DNA from: Aurantiochytrium sp. KH105
Lineage: Eukaryota > Sar > Bigyra > Thraustochytrida > Thraustochytriidae
Direction: 5' to 3'
Assembly (NCBI GenBank): GCA_003116975.1
Contig: BGKB01000041.1
Span: 186,001-250,000, forward strand
Length of the DNA stretch: 64,000 bases
The notes beneath the pieces are model-generated. The model ran no database searches and had not been told where the DNA came from. It saw only the letters and a list, made by a program, of their open reading frames with translations. This document shows, in pieces, positions 41,701 to 49,301 of this stretch; within the stretch, counting starts at the first letter, position 1; every line of letters starts with the position of its first letter. A program made the translations under genes and the position numbers.

Positions 41701-43218
41701 TCATGCTTGAGCAGTCGCTTGCGTTCCCTCACGGAGCCAGCCGGCCAGAACGTGGCGCAAGTACGTGCGAGCGTCAACGACGGTCTGTTGATCATCATCG
41801 CGCGTTGGATGCGTCCATGCGTGATGCGAGGCGCCTTTTACAAGAAGCATTCGCTGGCCTGCCCGTACCTGCTCGCGTGTGAGATATTGCACACTCAGCG
41901 CAAGCCATGGGTCGACCGTGCCGCCGATCCATAGAATGCGAGGCGTATCGATGTGATAACCGCCATAGATTGTGTTTGAGCGGTCAATGGCGGCTGCCGT
42001 GCGTTTAATGTCATCAAAGTCGTACACGGCGCAACTTGATGAAAACATGTAATCGAGCGTGACGAGGCCCTGCGTGAACATGCATTCGCTGCCTTTATCG
42101 CACGTCTGGAGAAACCCAAACTCGGTGCAAACCTGCCAAGACCAGAGATCTGTCTCGAGAGCGTCAAGAGACTTTGTTTGACTGATTTTTCCAGAGTGGT
42201 GCAGCATCATTTCTTGCCTCCCCTTTGGCACGGGCTCTGCTGCGCCTAATTTACTCTCTTGCTGCGCAGCACGTACTGCTGCGAGGGCATCAATTGGATC
42301 CGCGTGGGCGTCGGCATCGAGCATTGTCTCACAGATGCGAGCAATGTTGCAGCATGGGGATGTGCACGTCGGGTCATTGGCCTGCGCGGGAAAATCGGCG
42401 ACGCCGACGCCGGCAAAATCGCGCCTGGCGTCGAGAGAATCGAGGGAGTCCGAGGACAAGGAGAACTTCGCTTCGAGCTTTCGGAGCGCGGCAGTCTCGT
42501 TGGCTGCAAAGATGTCTCCGATGCGGGCGTGGCCGAGGGCGATCTTGTCGCGGCAAGCTTTGGAGCCGCCCACGGACTCTTCCATAAAGGCGCGCGACAC
42601 GTAGTTGTAGTAGCCAGGCATCTCGAGCCTCGAAAAGATTGGAGAACTGGAAGAGACTGCCGCAAAGAAGAGGTGCGGGAATTTGGCTCGGGCGAAGCTT
42701 GCGAGAACGCCAGGGTAGGAGCCCCCAAAGGTGATCCAGCGATTCGCGGGCGTAAGTGCGTATGCCTTGGCCATGTGGTCGTGGAAAAGCGCCAGATCCT
42801 GAAGTGCCTGTCGGGAGCTGAGAAAACGCATAGCACGCACGGATTCAATCGGGTATGCGACAGGGCAGGCCGAGCTGTTGCTTTGGCACCCGTAGTAGCG
42901 ATGTTGCAGTGCAAAAAACAGGGCGCCCGTTTCGCTGAGCCATTCAACGGCGTCGTTGCAGTGCACAGAGGCGCTCGTGACGCTCTCGTCCAGAGGCGGA
43001 CCCTCGCCGCCGACGCAAACAAAGATGGGCGCCCCGGACTCTGGTCCTTTCCAAAAGGTATCGTTCACAAAGTACTCTTGCTGCCATCTGGCATCATTGC
43101 TTCCATCGAAATGGTCTTGCATCGTCTCGTGAAAGAGCGCCGCATCCGTCTTTTCGGCGGCGAGAAAAAGAAGAACCAGGCCAAGTGCCACCGTTCTCGC
43201 AAGGTTCGCGCGCGCCAT
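41701..43218 (-). CDS. Secreted or lysosomal serine carboxypeptidase, family S28
   Basis: 505 residues from the ATG at 43218. A clear signal peptide (MARANLARTVALGLVLLFLA) is followed by the S28 start FHETMQDHFDGSNDARWQQ. Hallmarks in order are FVCVGGEGPPL, ALQHRYYGCQS, the nucleophile elbow FGGSYPGVLASF (Ser about 166), the acid in WIGGTVDPW (Asp about 436) and the base in VKGASHHAW (His about 465). The triad is complete, so it should be active. S28 enzymes (PRCP, DPP7, TSSP) cleave after proline at the C-terminus or release dipeptides, usually in lysosomes or secreted. Multiple Cys residues fit a secretory protein. Which of the two activities it has cannot be read from sequence. Confidence 0.92.
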   Translation of the reverse strand: MARANLARTVALGLVLLFLAAEKTDAALFHETMQDHFDGSNDARWQQEYFVNDTFWKGPESGAPIFVCVGGEGPPLDESVTSASVHCNDAVEWLSETGALFFALQHRYYGCQSNSSACPVAYPIESVRAMRFLSSRQALQDLALFHDHMAKAYALTPANRWITFGGSYPGVLASFARAKFPHLFFAAVSSSSPIFSRLEMPGYYNYVSRAFMEESVGGSKACRDKIALGHARIGDIFAANETAALRKLEAKFSLSSDSLDSLDARRDFAGVGVADFPAQANDPTCTSPCCNIARICETMLDADAHADPIDALAAVRAAQQESKLGAAEPVPKGRQEMMLHHSGKISQTKSLDALETDLWSWQVCTEFGFLQTCDKGSECMFTQGLVTLDYMFSSSCAVYDFDDIKRTAAAIDRSNTIYGGYHIDTPRILWIGGTVDPWLALSVQYLTREQVRAGQRMLLVKGASHHAWTHPTRDDDQQTVVDARTYLRHVLAGWLREGTQATAQA

Positions 43219-44316
43219 CTTTCTGGACCCGGGCGCCAACCTCAAGAGTGATGTGTTCTCTTTCGCTTTTTATCCTGCTACTTTTCCCCTGGCCGACGCG
43301 AGAAGTCCGCTCCGTCTGCTGCAGCGACGACGCGAGCTGCGTCGAGACGTTGACTCCTGTTCGTTTGCTGCTTGCTGCTGTCGCGCTAGAGCGAGGCGGA
43401 TCTTTGGCCTCCTGTAGGGACTAGACGGCACTAGTTCTTGCACTATGATCTCTCTTGCGCTTTGTGTGGACGACTTCTTGATGATCAATCGCGCGGGCGG
43501 GCCAGCTTGCCTGGCTGTCGCCTTCACTGACATCCAGCCGGCGACAGCGACCAGCATCAGCCATGGCGATATTTGATTTCAGTTTTGTGTGGATTCTGAC
43601 GTATATTCTCGTATACGCGTTGCTGGAATCGTTCTTGTGCATTGGGGACATCTTTGATATTTTTTTGACCACCAGCCTTGACCTTGGCGCGATCGCCACG
43701 CCAAGTCCATCAAAATCAAGAAAGCCGCCACGTTCTCGTCGCCGCCGTGCTCTCCCGCCTCTTCTCCTCCTCCCCTTCCGGTCCTCCCCCTCGCGAACGG
43801 GTGCTCGGTCTCGTGTGCCTTCGCTCTCCCGCCCTGTGTGTGTATGTATCTGCCCTCGCTGGCCGCTCTTCGCCATCTCATCTTCCTTCGCGCATGCGCT
43901 TCCTGCCCGCTCATCGCTGGCCGCTTCCCGTCGCGACTCTCCTCCCCGCTCGCTCCCTCGCCCGCAGACCAGACCCTCCCGACGTGGCGCCCGCTGCGAG
44001 CGCGGCGGGCCCGATCGAGCCCGGCTCGGGCCGCGCACACCGCGGCCGAGCGTGCAGCGCGTCCCGCCCTTCTCCCGCTCCTGCCTCTGCCTTCCTCACC
44101 TAACTGTATCGCGCGAGCTCGCTAACAGTAACCACGAGAGCCGCGGCAGACCCGCTTCGAGGAGGCGGAGGGAAAATCCAGCGGAGCCCGAGCTTGGCCG
44201 CCGCCCGCCCGCCCGCGCCCGGCCTGCGCTGCGCTGCGCGCCCGGTCTGCGCGGCCGCCGCGCGCCCCGCCTTGCCCGCGCCGCGCTCCGGCCCGCCGCG
44301 GGCGGCGAGGTCGGGG
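43219..44316. promoter_or_regulatory. Divergent spacer S28 peptidase / repeat protein
   Basis: 1098 bp between divergent starts. AT-rich in the middle (about 43560-43680) and CT- then GC-rich toward the repeat-protein gene. An ATG-initiated frame starting at 43563 overlaps the next gene out of frame and was rejected. Confidence 0.5.
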
Positions 44317-44350
44317 ATGGAGATGGAGATGGAGATGGAGATGGAGATGG
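44317..44350. repeat. (ATGGAG)n at the start of the repeat-protein gene
   Basis: Five or six hexanucleotide units that encode Met-Glu repeats and supply several in-frame ATGs, so initiation could be tolerant of repeat length. Confidence 0.9.
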
Positions 44351-47142
44351 GCGCCGGGGCCTCGTCGGCGCTGCAGGGGCCAACGTCGACGGCGGCGCGC
44401 GAGGCCGTCGAGGTCGCGCCCAGCGACGAGGAGACGATATGCAGCAGCAGCAGCGGCAGCGGCGGCGAGTCCGACGAGGAGTTCTTGGATGGAAAGAAGT
44501 CGGCGTCGGAGGTGGAGGGAGACGAAGCGAGAGCCTCGGGCGGGAGCTCCACCGGCAAGGCCAAGGGGCCTCGCCGAGATCGCGCAGAGCTCGGGGACTT
44601 GGCCGGGGAGCATGCCGCGAGAACCTCCTTCTCGTCAAATAGCTCCGCGTCCTCGATTGTAGCTGCAAACGCTGAGAGTAGGGCAGGCCTGGGACTTCCC
44701 GCAGGACAGCAGCTTGACGTGCGCTCCAGCGACGAGGAGGAGAGTAGCTCACCCGAGAGCTTGCCACCGCCTCCGCGGCTCGTACGTCCTCGGAAAGCCA
44801 CGGGGTCTCGTATTGCCGCACGAGTTGCGGTCCCGCGCCGCAGCTCCGTCTCTTCTTCGAATGGGTCGATTGAAATTGATACCCTAGGCCGACCACAGAT
44901 CTCCTTGAGCGGACGCAAAAGGAAACCGGCGCCCGTATACGTTGCAGAGCCGGCCACAGCACACAATAAGAAACTACGGGGCAGCTCGCCCTCTGCCGCA
45001 GCGTCTGGCTCACGGAAGGCCACATCAAAGGTGCTTCGCACGCCAAAGATGGCCCCGGGATCTGGCACTTTGGCGGCGAGCAAGTCCCGACGCAAGCTCG
45101 AAAAGCCTACTATCGATGATCATACGGATCCTCCTGCTGATGCGACGACTGCTGATGCGACGGTTAGTATAGATCAAAGTTCTGTCGGAAAAATGCCCGT
45201 TTCAGAGGCCGAGGTTCCACTCGACGCGGGCAAGGCGGCAAAGGATAAAAAAGACGCAAAGAAGAAAAAGAAGAAGAAAAAGAGAAAGAAGAAGAAGAGG
45301 GAACTGGCTGATTCGGAATCTGATCGACTGAGCGCCAAGGAGGCACGAAAGCTACGGAAAGAAAAGAAGAGAAAACGTCGCGAGAAGAGGTCCGAAATCT
45401 TGAAAGACTCAGAACCAGAACTCCATGACGCAGTGCCCGCACCAAAGCGACCACTTGAGATAATAGGTGGATCAGGCTATTTATCGTCATCGGATTCGTT
45501 GGAAGACATTAACGCTCACATGCAGCCCAACGAAAACCAGCATGATGATAGCACTGCACTTTCTGGTTTGACGCGGAAGCGCAACCCCAAACCCGTCAAG
45601 CATTTCGTGGCAGAGCCCGCCACTGTAGATAACAAGAAAGTCAAGAGTCGTCTGGAAGCAAGTCATCAAGATGAGACGGTTGCACCCGCAAGGAAAGCAC
45701 TGAAAAGGGCTCGCTCGGACTCGGGCACAGCTGTGGAACAGACGACCACTCCAAAACGTCAAAAAAGGCAAGCTCTCACCACACCCAAGAAAATGATCAC
45801 CCCTCTTCGTGTGTCAGGGAGCGGACGCGTCGTCAAACCAGCTGTTCACTACATTGCGGAGCCTGCAACGTCGCACAACAAAAAACTCAAGCACCAAGAC
45901 TCGGACGTCATACCAAGCACCAAGTCAGGTACCAAGTCCTTGTCGAAAAAGACATCCTTGGTCTCGTCTGCTCCTCAAGTCACGGAGAAGCCAGCCCCAG
46001 CCAGCTCGAGAACTTCTCTGCGTGGCCGCCAAGTCAAACCTACTGCGCATTACGTTGCCGAGCCTGCGACGGCTCACAACAAGAAATTACGGAATGAGGA
46101 AATCGTGGAGGGTTCTGTGCGTCCACATTCTAGAGCGTCCCCTCCCACGAGAAAGAGAGTGACGAGTGCACGAAAACCTCCTGTTCGAGGCGAGGAAGGG
46201 TCTACATCGCGTAAGCCTGGCGGTCTCTCAACGCCAAAGTCCCACGAGAAAAAAGCGAAAGTCTCGTCCTCTAGCGCCGAAATGTCTCGATCGAGACACA
46301 TGTCTGCCTCCACTGCCAACAGTAGCACTCTTGTTACCTCGTCCAGTGGACGCATCGTCAAACCTACGAGCGCCTTTGTTGCGGAGCCAGCTACGACGCA
46401 TAACAAGAAGCTGAGGCAGAACCAGCCGCGTGAGGACCTCGAGATCATGTCGAGATCCAAGGCAGAGAATGTACAAGCGGTACCACGTCGGCTTGCTGAC
46501 AACTTGAAAGAGGTTAGCAGGACGCACGGCACGCCGCTGACGCAACCTCCTGGGCGACGCACGTCGGCAAGTGGCCGCATCGTCAAGCCGAGTCCTGTTT
46601 TCATCGCTGAGCCGGCCACCGTGCACAACAAGCGCCTTCGCGAGAAACCCAACGTATCACAGATGCAGCTTAATAATACCTTGCTGGGACTTGAGGATGG
46701 CTCGTCCATGGAAAGAGAGTCGGCAAAATTGTCCGCGGAAGAGCTGACCGCGGTCGACGGGCTGGCCTCTGCGAGCGCCAGCCCCATTTGTGATACCGAC
46801 GTTTTGCCATCTTCTGTCGGCGAGGTTGTTTCTGTACGAGGCAAGGTGGGTCATGATCTTCAGCCTTCAGCCAATAAACAAAGCTTGTCGCGATCGGCAA
46901 GCGAAGAAAAGAGGAAACGCAAGGAAGAGAAACGGGCGAGGCGCAAGGAGAGGCGTGCGCGACGCGCTCGGAAGGAGGAGAAGCGACGTCTCAAGGAGCT
47001 GGAAAAGGCAATGCGAGCCGCATATTCAGGCTCAAGTACGCCGCCTGGCAGCGAGGCCACCTCCTCACCGATGCGGATGGCCGTAGGACATCGCGAGGAT
47101 CACGGCCGGTTGAGTCAGCGCACGGAAGCATTGGGCAATTAG
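44317..47142 (+). CDS. Lysine-rich protein with six copies of an AEPATxHNKKL motif
   Basis: 941 residues from the ATG at 44317 (MEMEMEMEMEMGAGAS); upstream in frame only TTG. I know no named family. Six copies of a roughly 25-residue unit occur with consensus S-G-R-x-V-K-P-x-x-x-(Y/F)-(V/I)-A-E-P-A-T-x-H-N-K-K-L-(R/K), encoded at 44908-44979, 45571-45645, 45814-45891, 46018-46092, 46342-46416 and 46567-46644. They are joined by variable Ser/Lys-rich linkers with no other fold. A Lys-rich block (KKKKKKKKRKKKKRE) follows copy 1, and an Arg/Lys/Glu coiled helix (KRARRKERRARRARKEEKRR) lies near the C-terminus. The first 150 residues are acidic and Ser-rich. Basic tracts suggest a nuclear or nucleolar protein in which each unit could be a short linear docking or nucleic-acid-contacting motif; that is inference. 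Confidence 0.85.
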   Translation: MEMEMEMEMEMGAGASSALQGPTSTAAREAVEVAPSDEETICSSSSGSGGESDEEFLDGKKSASEVEGDEARASGGSSTGKAKGPRRDRAELGDLAGEHAARTSFSSNSSASSIVAANAESRAGLGLPAGQQLDVRSSDEEESSSPESLPPPPRLVRPRKATGSRIAARVAVPRRSSVSSSNGSIEIDTLGRPQISLSGRKRKPAPVYVAEPATAHNKKLRGSSPSAAASGSRKATSKVLRTPKMAPGSGTLAASKSRRKLEKPTIDDHTDPPADATTADATVSIDQSSVGKMPVSEAEVPLDAGKAAKDKKDAKKKKKKKKRKKKKRELADSESDRLSAKEARKLRKEKKRKRREKRSEILKDSEPELHDAVPAPKRPLEIIGGSGYLSSSDSLEDINAHMQPNENQHDDSTALSGLTRKRNPKPVKHFVAEPATVDNKKVKSRLEASHQDETVAPARKALKRARSDSGTAVEQTTTPKRQKRQALTTPKKMITPLRVSGSGRVVKPAVHYIAEPATSHNKKLKHQDSDVIPSTKSGTKSLSKKTSLVSSAPQVTEKPAPASSRTSLRGRQVKPTAHYVAEPATAHNKKLRNEEIVEGSVRPHSRASPPTRKRVTSARKPPVRGEEGSTSRKPGGLSTPKSHEKKAKVSSSSAEMSRSRHMSASTANSSTLVTSSSGRIVKPTSAFVAEPATTHNKKLRQNQPREDLEIMSRSKAENVQAVPRRLADNLKEVSRTHGTPLTQPPGRRTSASGRIVKPSPVFIAEPATVHNKRLREKPNVSQMQLNNTLLGLEDGSSMERESAKLSAEELTAVDGLASASASPICDTDVLPSSVGEVVSVRGKVGHDLQPSANKQSLSRSASEEKRKRKEEKRARRKERRARRARKEEKRRLKELEKAMRAAYSGSSTPPGSEATSSPMRMAVGHREDHGRLSQRTEALGN
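44908..46644 (+). repeat. Six dispersed protein repeats (AEPATxHNKKL)
   Basis: Copies at 44908, 45571, 45814, 46018, 46342 and 46567, each about 72-78 nt. The amino acids AEPAT and NKK are invariant or nearly so (copy 2 has DNKKV, copy 6 HNKRL), while synonymous sites differ freely between copies (for example GCAGAGCCGGCCACA versus GCCGAGCCTGCGACG). This is old duplication held by protein-level constraint, not recent DNA amplification. Confidence 0.9.
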
Positions 47143-47511: not shown

Positions 47512-49143
47512 TTATTGCCCGCCCTTAAGAAGCTGGCGTTGCCGGCGATTCTGGTACCCCCGCGCGAGTTGATGCGCGATGGCCAAGAGTGCGAAAAGAA
47601 CGGCGCCAATCGATGCGCCAGAAAAGGAAACACGCCGCACATAGGCGACGACGGCGCGACGCGCTCGCGCGCTTGCGCGCAGACGAGCAAGAACCGTCAC
47701 GCCCAAAGCCAAAGAGACCCCTTTGCAGACTTGAGGATTGACACGCTGAAGAATCCACGTCGATGCGCGATCCTGAATCGATCGTGTGAGCAGCTTGCTT
47801 GCAAGCTCGACCTGCTTTTCAAGCTGCGGCGTGCTCAGGTTCGGTTTGCGAGCACCCTGTGGTTGCGCATCAATCGCAGGCCGAAAGGCCGTTGCGCTCG
47901 TTTTAAGCTTGCTCTTCTGTCGAGCATATTCCTCGCCCGAAAGCGTGATGCGCTGCTGCCACTCGGGAAGAAGGTTCACAATGCCGCGCGTTGTCATCAG
48001 CTCGCGCGTCTTTTGCGACATGTTGGCCAGGACCTCGATTCGATCCTCTTCGGTCTTGCAGTAAATAAGAGGATAGATTTCGGTGATGAAATCACGAATA
48101 CGGCGCAAGATCGTGCCTTCAAGAATCACTTCCACAAGGGTCTTGTCCAGTAGAATGCGCTGTAGGATTGAAGGATACATGGCAATGAGGCCATTTGAGT
48201 CGAGAAGGACGGCAAATGAGCCAATGATGCCCATGATCCCGGCGGCAATAAGCACTAGAAAGGTGAGCGCAGTAGGGCTCAAGGTCGAGACCAGAAAACC
48301 GCAGACACCGATGGCGCTCACGCCCAAACTTGCCAGGACCGACATTTGAAAGGTTGACATGGGTGCCTTGGCCGCCGACCGCGGCTTGACCAAGCCCGCA
48401 TCAAAGACGGGCGCGCTAGATGCAGAGGGGACCGATGGCCCAGCGACAGGCTTGGTATCAGCCAAGAGAGTTTCGACGCGCGAGGTCTTCTTGGTACTGG
48501 CGCTGGTGCTAGTCGTGCTGCTCGTGACTTTAGTCTCCGCAGAGACGACCTCGGCGACAAGTTCTGGCTTCGGTGCCGACTGTTGCTGAGTTTTTTGCTG
48601 TTTACTTTCGGAAGACACTTTAGCGCCCGGTACCGAGGCAGACCTGGCCGTGTCATCGGACGTGGTCGCCGCTTTGGAAGTGGCCGCCTTGAGCGCCGTG
48701 GCAGCGAGCTCGATCGCCTCTGCTGCAACTTCAACAGCCTTTTCCGCGTTGGGCTCCATGGGGGTTTCTGTGGCAAGGTCTTCTGTCGGAATCTCGACAG
48801 GTGCAGAGGATTTGGCCTCATCCGCTGGTTCTTCCGCTGGGTTTTCCAGCGTCAGTTCCGCGGCGCATTTGGGCACGGCAAAGGCGGGGTACAGCTCGCT
48901 TACGGTCGCGAGGTACAGCTGCCGAGCTTTTTCCTGCGAGGTTCCCGTGGACTCATTCCACGCTTTCCACTTGGCGTGGGCCACGACACTAAGCACCGAC
49001 GGCGCGGGCGCCTTGCAGTCTCCCTCGAGCGCCTGCTTGTAGAGTCCATAAAGCCTGAGCTTGTCCGCGTCGCCCACCTTGACCGAGGCATGCTGCTTCA
49101 CATGCTCCACCGCGGAGGCGAAGGCCTCCGGCGTCACGGCCAT
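47512..49143 (-). CDS. Membrane-anchored acyl-CoA-binding protein
   Basis: 543 residues. Residues 1-88 are an ACB domain: FASAVEHVKQHASVKV, LRLYGLYKQALEGDC (ligand Tyr and Lys), AKWKAWNESTGTSQEKARQLY and the closing helix with Tyr. ACBPs bind long-chain acyl-CoA and buffer or deliver it to acyltransferases. A 170-residue Ala/Ser/Thr/Glu linker leads to two hydrophobic helices (about 266-313: LASLGVSAIGVCGFLVSTL, ALTFLVLIAAGIMGIIGSF). A conserved-looking soluble segment follows (LDKTLVEVILEGTILRRIRD, MTTRGIVNLLPEWQQR), then a final helix (about 500-518) and a basic tail. The helices suggest anchorage in the ER, peroxisome or chloroplast-type membranes. Known ACBD5-type proteins are tail-anchored, but this central module I do not recognise. 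Confidence 0.82.
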   Translation of the reverse strand: MAVTPEAFASAVEHVKQHASVKVGDADKLRLYGLYKQALEGDCKAPAPSVLSVVAHAKWKAWNESTGTSQEKARQLYLATVSELYPAFAVPKCAAELTLENPAEEPADEAKSSAPVEIPTEDLATETPMEPNAEKAVEVAAEAIELAATALKAATSKAATTSDDTARSASVPGAKVSSESKQQKTQQQSAPKPELVAEVVSAETKVTSSTTSTSASTKKTSRVETLLADTKPVAGPSVPSASSAPVFDAGLVKPRSAAKAPMSTFQMSVLASLGVSAIGVCGFLVSTLSPTALTFLVLIAAGIMGIIGSFAVLLDSNGLIAMYPSILQRILLDKTLVEVILEGTILRRIRDFITEIYPLIYCKTEEDRIEVLANMSQKTRELMTTRGIVNLLPEWQQRITLSGEEYARQKSKLKTSATAFRPAIDAQPQGARKPNLSTPQLEKQVELASKLLTRSIQDRASTWILQRVNPQVCKGVSLALGVTVLARLRASARARRAVVAYVRRVSFSGASIGAVLFALLAIAHQLARGYQNRRQRQLLKGGQ

Positions 49144-49156
49144 CGCGCCTCTTGCT

Positions 49157-49188
<32 letters not shown>

Positions 49189-49275
49189 CGCTCCTGCCGC
49201 TCCCTCCCTCCCTCCTCGCCGCGCCGCCGTCGCGGGGCTGGCAAAAGTTCTTGGTCTGTCGCGACAGACCTCGCG

Positions 49276-49301
49276 TACCTTACCTTACCTTACCTTACCT
49301 T
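49276..49301. repeat. (TACCT)n pentanucleotide repeat
   Basis: Five consecutive units upstream of the ACBP gene. Confidence 0.9.

Follow-up and report, generated by a model that had tools for sequence, protein, structure and literature searches.

We describe a short protein motif in the thraustochytrid Aurantiochytrium sp. KH105, present in nine copies in three related genes (A, B and C), with six of the copies arrayed in gene A. On balance, we favour reading gene A as the gene for a largely disordered scaffold of nuclear type, on which the six near-identical units serve as linear docking motifs. The pattern R..[KR]P...[YF].AE[PS]A[ST]..N[KR][KR] fits all nine units, and within this genome the motif is limited to these three genes. 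The window, that is, the whole stretch of DNA analysed (64,000 nucleotides), covers C41:186001-250000 of a 76-Mb assembly of 367 contigs.

Gene A and its six units

Gene A consists of one open frame with its ATG at 44317 and its stop at 47140-47142 (Table 1), and its structure (intron-less, start codon) was taken from the open frame alone. An earlier note on this DNA had described six units spread over 580 residues, and both the array and its span were recovered, as units of 26 amino acids that together cover residues 197-776. Its wording of the motif holds in part. The AEPAT core occurs in 6 of 6 units, but the full string AEPATxHNKKL is exact in only four, with VDNKKV in unit 2 and VHNKRL in unit 6. 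The proposed GRxVKP lead is likewise exact in four, reading GRKRKP in unit 1 and KRNPKP in unit 2. The six units agree fully in 10 of the 28 columns of their alignment. When the window was searched in six frames with a nine-unit profile, which itself contains the six units of gene A, these units scored 44-51 bits and the next best stretch -1.3 bits.

Table 1. Features of gene A, with positions in the window.
Feature	Position	Strand	Description
Gene A	44317..47142	+	Six units in one frame of 941 aa; rich in Ser, Ala, Lys and Arg; disorder-prone
N-terminal flank of unit 1 (aa 164-196)	44806..44904	+	RRxxxxxSxGSIxxDxxGRP, conserved in gene B
Unit 1 (aa 197-222)	44905..44982	+	Pairs with gene B unit 1
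Lys/Arg run, 14 residues (aa 315-328)	45259..45300	+	Nuclear-localisation-type stretch
Unit 2 (aa 419-444)	45571..45648	+	The most diverged unit; pairs with gene B unit 2
Unit 3 (aa 501-526)	45817..45894	+	With flank, best match in A to the gene C unit, by a small margin
Unit 4 (aa 568-593)	46018..46095	+	Motif unit
Unit 5 (aa 676-701)	46342..46419	+	Motif unit; query for the genome search
Unit 6 (aa 751-776)	46567..46644	+	Motif unit
C-terminal Lys/Arg/Glu-rich stretch (aa 865-900)	46909..47016	+	From translation; Lys/Arg run at aa 865

Protein A contains ten aromatic residues, six of which occupy the conserved aromatic position of the units, and, like protein C, it has no Trp. Proteins A, B and C all fall on the disordered side of the charge-hydropathy boundary and carry Lys/Arg runs, and a hydropathy scan found no membrane-like segment in any of the three (highest 19-residue hydropathy in protein A, 0.77). 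The earlier note had proposed an array of docking motifs in a nuclear protein, and it is the nuclear part of that proposal which these features fit. The 14-residue Lys/Arg run of gene A may serve nuclear localisation, and the C-terminal Lys/Arg/Glu-rich stretch may be helical.

The second allele of gene A, on contig C16, also encodes 941 amino acids, with seven aligned gaps on each side. Gene A starts with a coding ATGGAG repeat (Met-Glu; 44317-44349), to which the C16 allele adds one Met-Glu pair, which makes the N-terminus a coding microsatellite of variable length. The surrounding window has a GC content of 54-61% and long open frames. The neighbours of gene A are ordinary. One (47515-49281) is an acyl-CoA-binding-domain protein with C-terminal stretches that look hydrophobic, and the other (41704-43266, minus strand) is a peptidase S28. 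Elsewhere in our searches, a PfaA-type polyunsaturated-fatty-acid synthase model gave long partial matches in the genome (best 930 bits against a cut-off of 1010), and the same model also matched 11 of 14 control genomes, none of them above cut-off. Together with the base composition and the long frames, these matches would suit a stramenopile of thraustochytrid type.

A family of three genes

Further copies of the motif were first found by a genome search with gene A unit 5. Gene B, on contigs C27 and C56, encodes 1221 and 1209 amino acids, counted from the first Met, and carries two units. Gene C, on contigs C104 and C113, encodes 221 and 225 amino acids and carries one unit, the end of which lies 6 residues short of the C-terminus. 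A consensus search of the whole 76-Mb genome returned 18 matches, corresponding to nine units in two haplotypes, and nothing beyond these at E ≤ 10. Seven columns, R, K, P, A, E, A and N, are invariant over the nine units of the three genes, with Arg replacing the Lys in one gene C allele. The distance from the Arg to the aromatic is 8 in every unit, Ser or Thr occupies one fixed position throughout, and several Lys/Arg positions are conserved.

Some units can be matched individually between genes. About 33 residues preceding unit 1 are common to genes A and B, giving 51% identity over 59 amino acids including the unit (E 4e-13). The best partner of gene B unit 2 is unit 2 of gene A, both lacking the Gly before the Arg and carrying Asp for His. 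The gene C unit matches unit 3 with its flank at E 5e-8 and unit 6 at E 2e-7; since unit 3 leads only narrowly, this last pairing is weak. Taken together, the flank pairings (A1-B1, A2-B2 and, narrowly, A3-C) mark the units as old and still partly recognisable one by one, with no recent burst. Pairwise alignments of proteins A, B and C yielded nothing better than E 1 apart from those that contain a unit.

Two sets of candidates were set aside. A weak match on C219/C162 (E 0.07) proved to lie in a long frame that lacks the motif and, by eye, has a RING-like cluster. A DNA pattern search marked 18 places, 14 of them in genes A and B; the four others, on C44, C141, C80 and C150, are without the R..KP...[YF] lead.

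In gene C (L037:4060-4719), the model has a helix pair (residues 63-92 and 97-109; block pLDDT 81-92) before the tail that ends in the unit, and residues 77-110 are identical between the alleles. The C-terminus of gene B (L035:7016-7294) holds two tandem Cys clusters that resemble degenerate WRKY19-type fingers. Searched against the genome, this cluster gave 10 weak matches at E ≤ 1, two of them gene B itself in both haplotypes and eight other frames. Of four such Cys-cluster stretches, the two that were scanned (on C34 and C5) both score above the PF24906 (Zf_WRKY19) cut-off, and their frames carry intact finger arrays. Through this match to zinc-finger frames the unit motif is linked, weakly, to zinc-finger proteins. 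Unlike the Zf_WRKY19 frames that its cluster resembles, gene B itself stays below cut-off (no Pfam match above threshold; best CxC6, E 1.2), and gene A shows no Pfam match of any kind.

Divergence and constraint

Each unit-bearing gene was found twice, on contig pairs, with a silent divergence of 8-12% outside the units, which suggests that two haplotypes are present in the assembly. For a single diploid strain, a silent-site difference of about 8-12% appears high, and it may reflect a hybrid or very old heterozygosity.

Between units, identical residues are encoded by codons that have diverged close to saturation. Codons differ in 121 of 226 identical-residue comparisons among the six units of gene A, where saturation would give about 144, and in 302 of 478 among all nine units, where it would give 305.6; these expectations come from codon usage pooled over genes A, B and C. 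Between the haplotypes of gene A, the units (23 codons each, 138 in all) differ by 1 replacement and 4 silent changes, and the linkers (796 codons) by 75 replacement and 50 silent changes. The contrast at replacement sites is pronounced (Fisher p = 1e-4), whereas the replacement-to-silent ratios, 1:4 against 75:50, do not differ significantly by themselves (Fisher p = 0.16). The units have the lower silent divergence as well (0.039 against 0.085 in the linkers), and a regional effect may therefore account for some of the contrast. In gene B, the 46 unit codons show zero change of either kind between haplotypes, which makes the ratio uninformative there, and the 23 codons of the one unit in gene C include 2 replacement changes.

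The earlier claims that the units of gene A have diverged at synonymous sites and are constrained as protein are both upheld, the former by the codon counts and the latter by the haplotype contrast and by the retention of units in paralogues whose linkers cannot be aligned. Protein-level constraint on these units of gene A is well supported.

Searches against known families and motifs

The earlier note knew of no Pfam family with this core, and our scans agree: genes A, B and C and the six units of gene A gave no Pfam match above cut-off. Gene A matched no Pfam model at E ≤ 10, and gene C matched three at E 0.15 to 0.55, all far under their cut-offs. PHROGs contained no relative of the units, and neither there nor among PDB sequences did any family match the units or genes A, B and C above a cut-off. 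Against PDB sequences, the unit profiles gave two weak matches of 10-11 residues each (E 0.21 or worse) and the whole of protein A gave one (E 0.99), all of which we take as chance matches. The nine-unit peptide pattern matched 12 stretches in IMG/VR, and the six-unit pattern matched 12 in the prokaryotic contigs of GTDB; none in either set was confirmed by tblastn at E ≤ 1e-3. Twelve docking-motif or residue patterns were each found in 0 of 9 units, the MELT, BRC, AT-hook, PIP, RVxF, HP1, KEN, D-box, SUMO and HMGN-like patterns included, and a CDK-type [ST]P is present in one of the nine. Searches of the open-access literature found neither the exact unit strings (four) nor anything on the thraustochytrid kinetochore or on motif arrays.

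Predicted structure of a unit

AlphaFold2 models a 34-residue unit with a helix at residues 22-29, just past the conserved Thr (mean pLDDT 75.5, 67 for the block of residues 21-30, pTM 0.22). In gene C, the helix is modelled at residues 206-216 and begins one residue before the Ser (pLDDT 66-68, 60.7 overall, pTM 0.27). The underlying alignments were shallow, with 8 rows for the unit and 2 for gene C; the former took eight of the nine units, the gene C unit being omitted by choice, though it would fit. With modest confidence, we describe the unit as an extended basic-aromatic lead (R..KP...[YF]), a turn (AEPA[ST]) and a short predicted helix (xxNKKLR) by the conserved Ser/Thr. The invariant Ala, Glu and Ala precede the modelled helix, and the model therefore leaves them unexplained. 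We dropped the idea that the two invariant Ala, the Asn and the Leu form one helix face because the modelled helix begins past both Ala.

Alternative explanations

The CENP-C motif is characterised by an aromatic-Trp pair followed by x-Gly-Glu. The earlier note had seen a resemblance to it in the basic lead and the aromatic of the units, from which one could suppose that these are derived centromere motifs of CENP-C type and that gene A encodes a protein of the kinetochore or centromere. The resemblance extends to spacing: in the central domain of human CENP-C, R522 is described as the arginine anchor and W530 as a hydrophobic residue for which contact with the CENP-A tail has been proposed (PMC5472775), and the 8-residue distance between them equals that from the invariant Arg to the aromatic in our units. 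This agreement may be coincidence, and kinship was not borne out. The genome encodes a separate CENP-C on C147/C96, with PF11699 (CENP-C_C) scoring 38.8 and 38.5 bits against a cut-off of 29; among 14 control genomes, 8 were matched weakly in this search, none above cut-off, and the domain is absent from gene A in a Pfam scan at E ≤ 10. The motif of this CENP-C (L069, L070) ends in His-Trp-Lys-Gly-Glu-Arg, canonical by eye. Against it, all nine units score no better than shuffled sequences, 19-81% of 300 shuffles scoring as high. Unlike CENP-C, the units contain no Trp and no aromatic-Trp-x-Gly-Glu block (0 of 9 each), bear the additional AEPATxHNKKL half and are arrayed in gene A. We regard derivation from CENP-C as very improbable.

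If each unit instead bound DNA or RNA directly, the array would be a multivalent nucleic-acid binder, AT-hook-like or nucleolar. The net charge of the units (+2 to +6) and the Lys/Arg-rich linkers around them would suit this, and the G-R-x-x-K-P lead resembles basic minor-groove peptides. Yet the core of the AT-hook is Gly-Arg-Pro, which occurs in 0 of 9 units, and charge-based binding has no need of an invariant Ala, Glu, Ala and Asn, the Glu being acidic; we consider this reading unlikely. The fixed Ser/Thr and the conserved Lys/Arg positions could alternatively mark the units as substrate or regulatory sites, with the Ser/Thr or a Lys as the target of phosphorylation, methylation or cleavage. 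We find this quite doubtful, as about 22 conserved residues in two halves are long for such a site, and the Ser/Thr at the start of the modelled helix could be a helix cap. It is scarcely credible that the units are a recent, functionless repeat expansion. They do sit in low-complexity, disorder-prone sequence, but the near-saturation of codon differences between them speaks strongly against it, as do their persistence in genes B and C and, in gene A, their far fewer replacement changes relative to the linkers.

A proposed docking array and its candidate partner

As in a linear docking array, the short conserved units of gene A lie within poorly conserved, disorder-prone sequence. KNL1/Spc105 carries several MELT docking motifs on a kinetochore scaffold, and gene A shares with it the copies of a short motif, the non-conserved linkers and the largely disordered protein; the units differ in being longer and basic, with a MELT-type core in 0 of 9. 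In BRCA2, each BRC repeat docks one copy of its partner through an FxxA core. Its repeats, like ours, are tens of residues long with variable linkers between them, but the FxxA core occurs in none of the nine units.

We postulate that the six motifs would let one gene A protein hold several copies of a partner or grip one repetitive surface with high avidity, so that the array would serve avidity or copy-number control. The invariant Arg and the aromatic eight residues on would grip one surface, whose side the helix would touch. Genes B and C, with two units and one unit near the C-terminus, may use the same partner in other settings.

Our lead candidate for this partner, put forward tentatively, is the nucleosome, with the Arg, invariant in nine of nine units, anchored in the acidic patch of H2A-H2B. 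An arginine anchor, in which Arg is inserted in the H2A acidic triad, is described as common to many nucleosome binders (PMC9040877). A dedicated protein is the alternative partner. In its fullest form, which we offer as speculation and would not expect to hold, the unit would be a lineage-specific nucleosome-reading peptide, with the Arg in the acidic patch, the aromatic on the histone surface and a short capped helix on the flank. The six-copy gene A protein with its Lys-rich linkers would then organise chromatin by bridging several nucleosomes, having evolved within this lineage of protists separately from CENP-C and spread into a small gene family.

As a whole, these three genes present a sharply defined motif in nine copies, matched by no curated family among those searched, and related species may already have it in proteins yet to be annotated. 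In Spc105, the number of MELT motifs is reported to balance checkpoint strength (PMC7292645), and the 6, 2 and 1 copies in genes A, B and C allow a similar copy-number question to be asked here. Finding the partner would identify a docking system carried by probable nuclear scaffolds in a non-model lineage of protists, and would test whether basic-aromatic holding of nucleosomes had an independent origin, apart from CENP-C.
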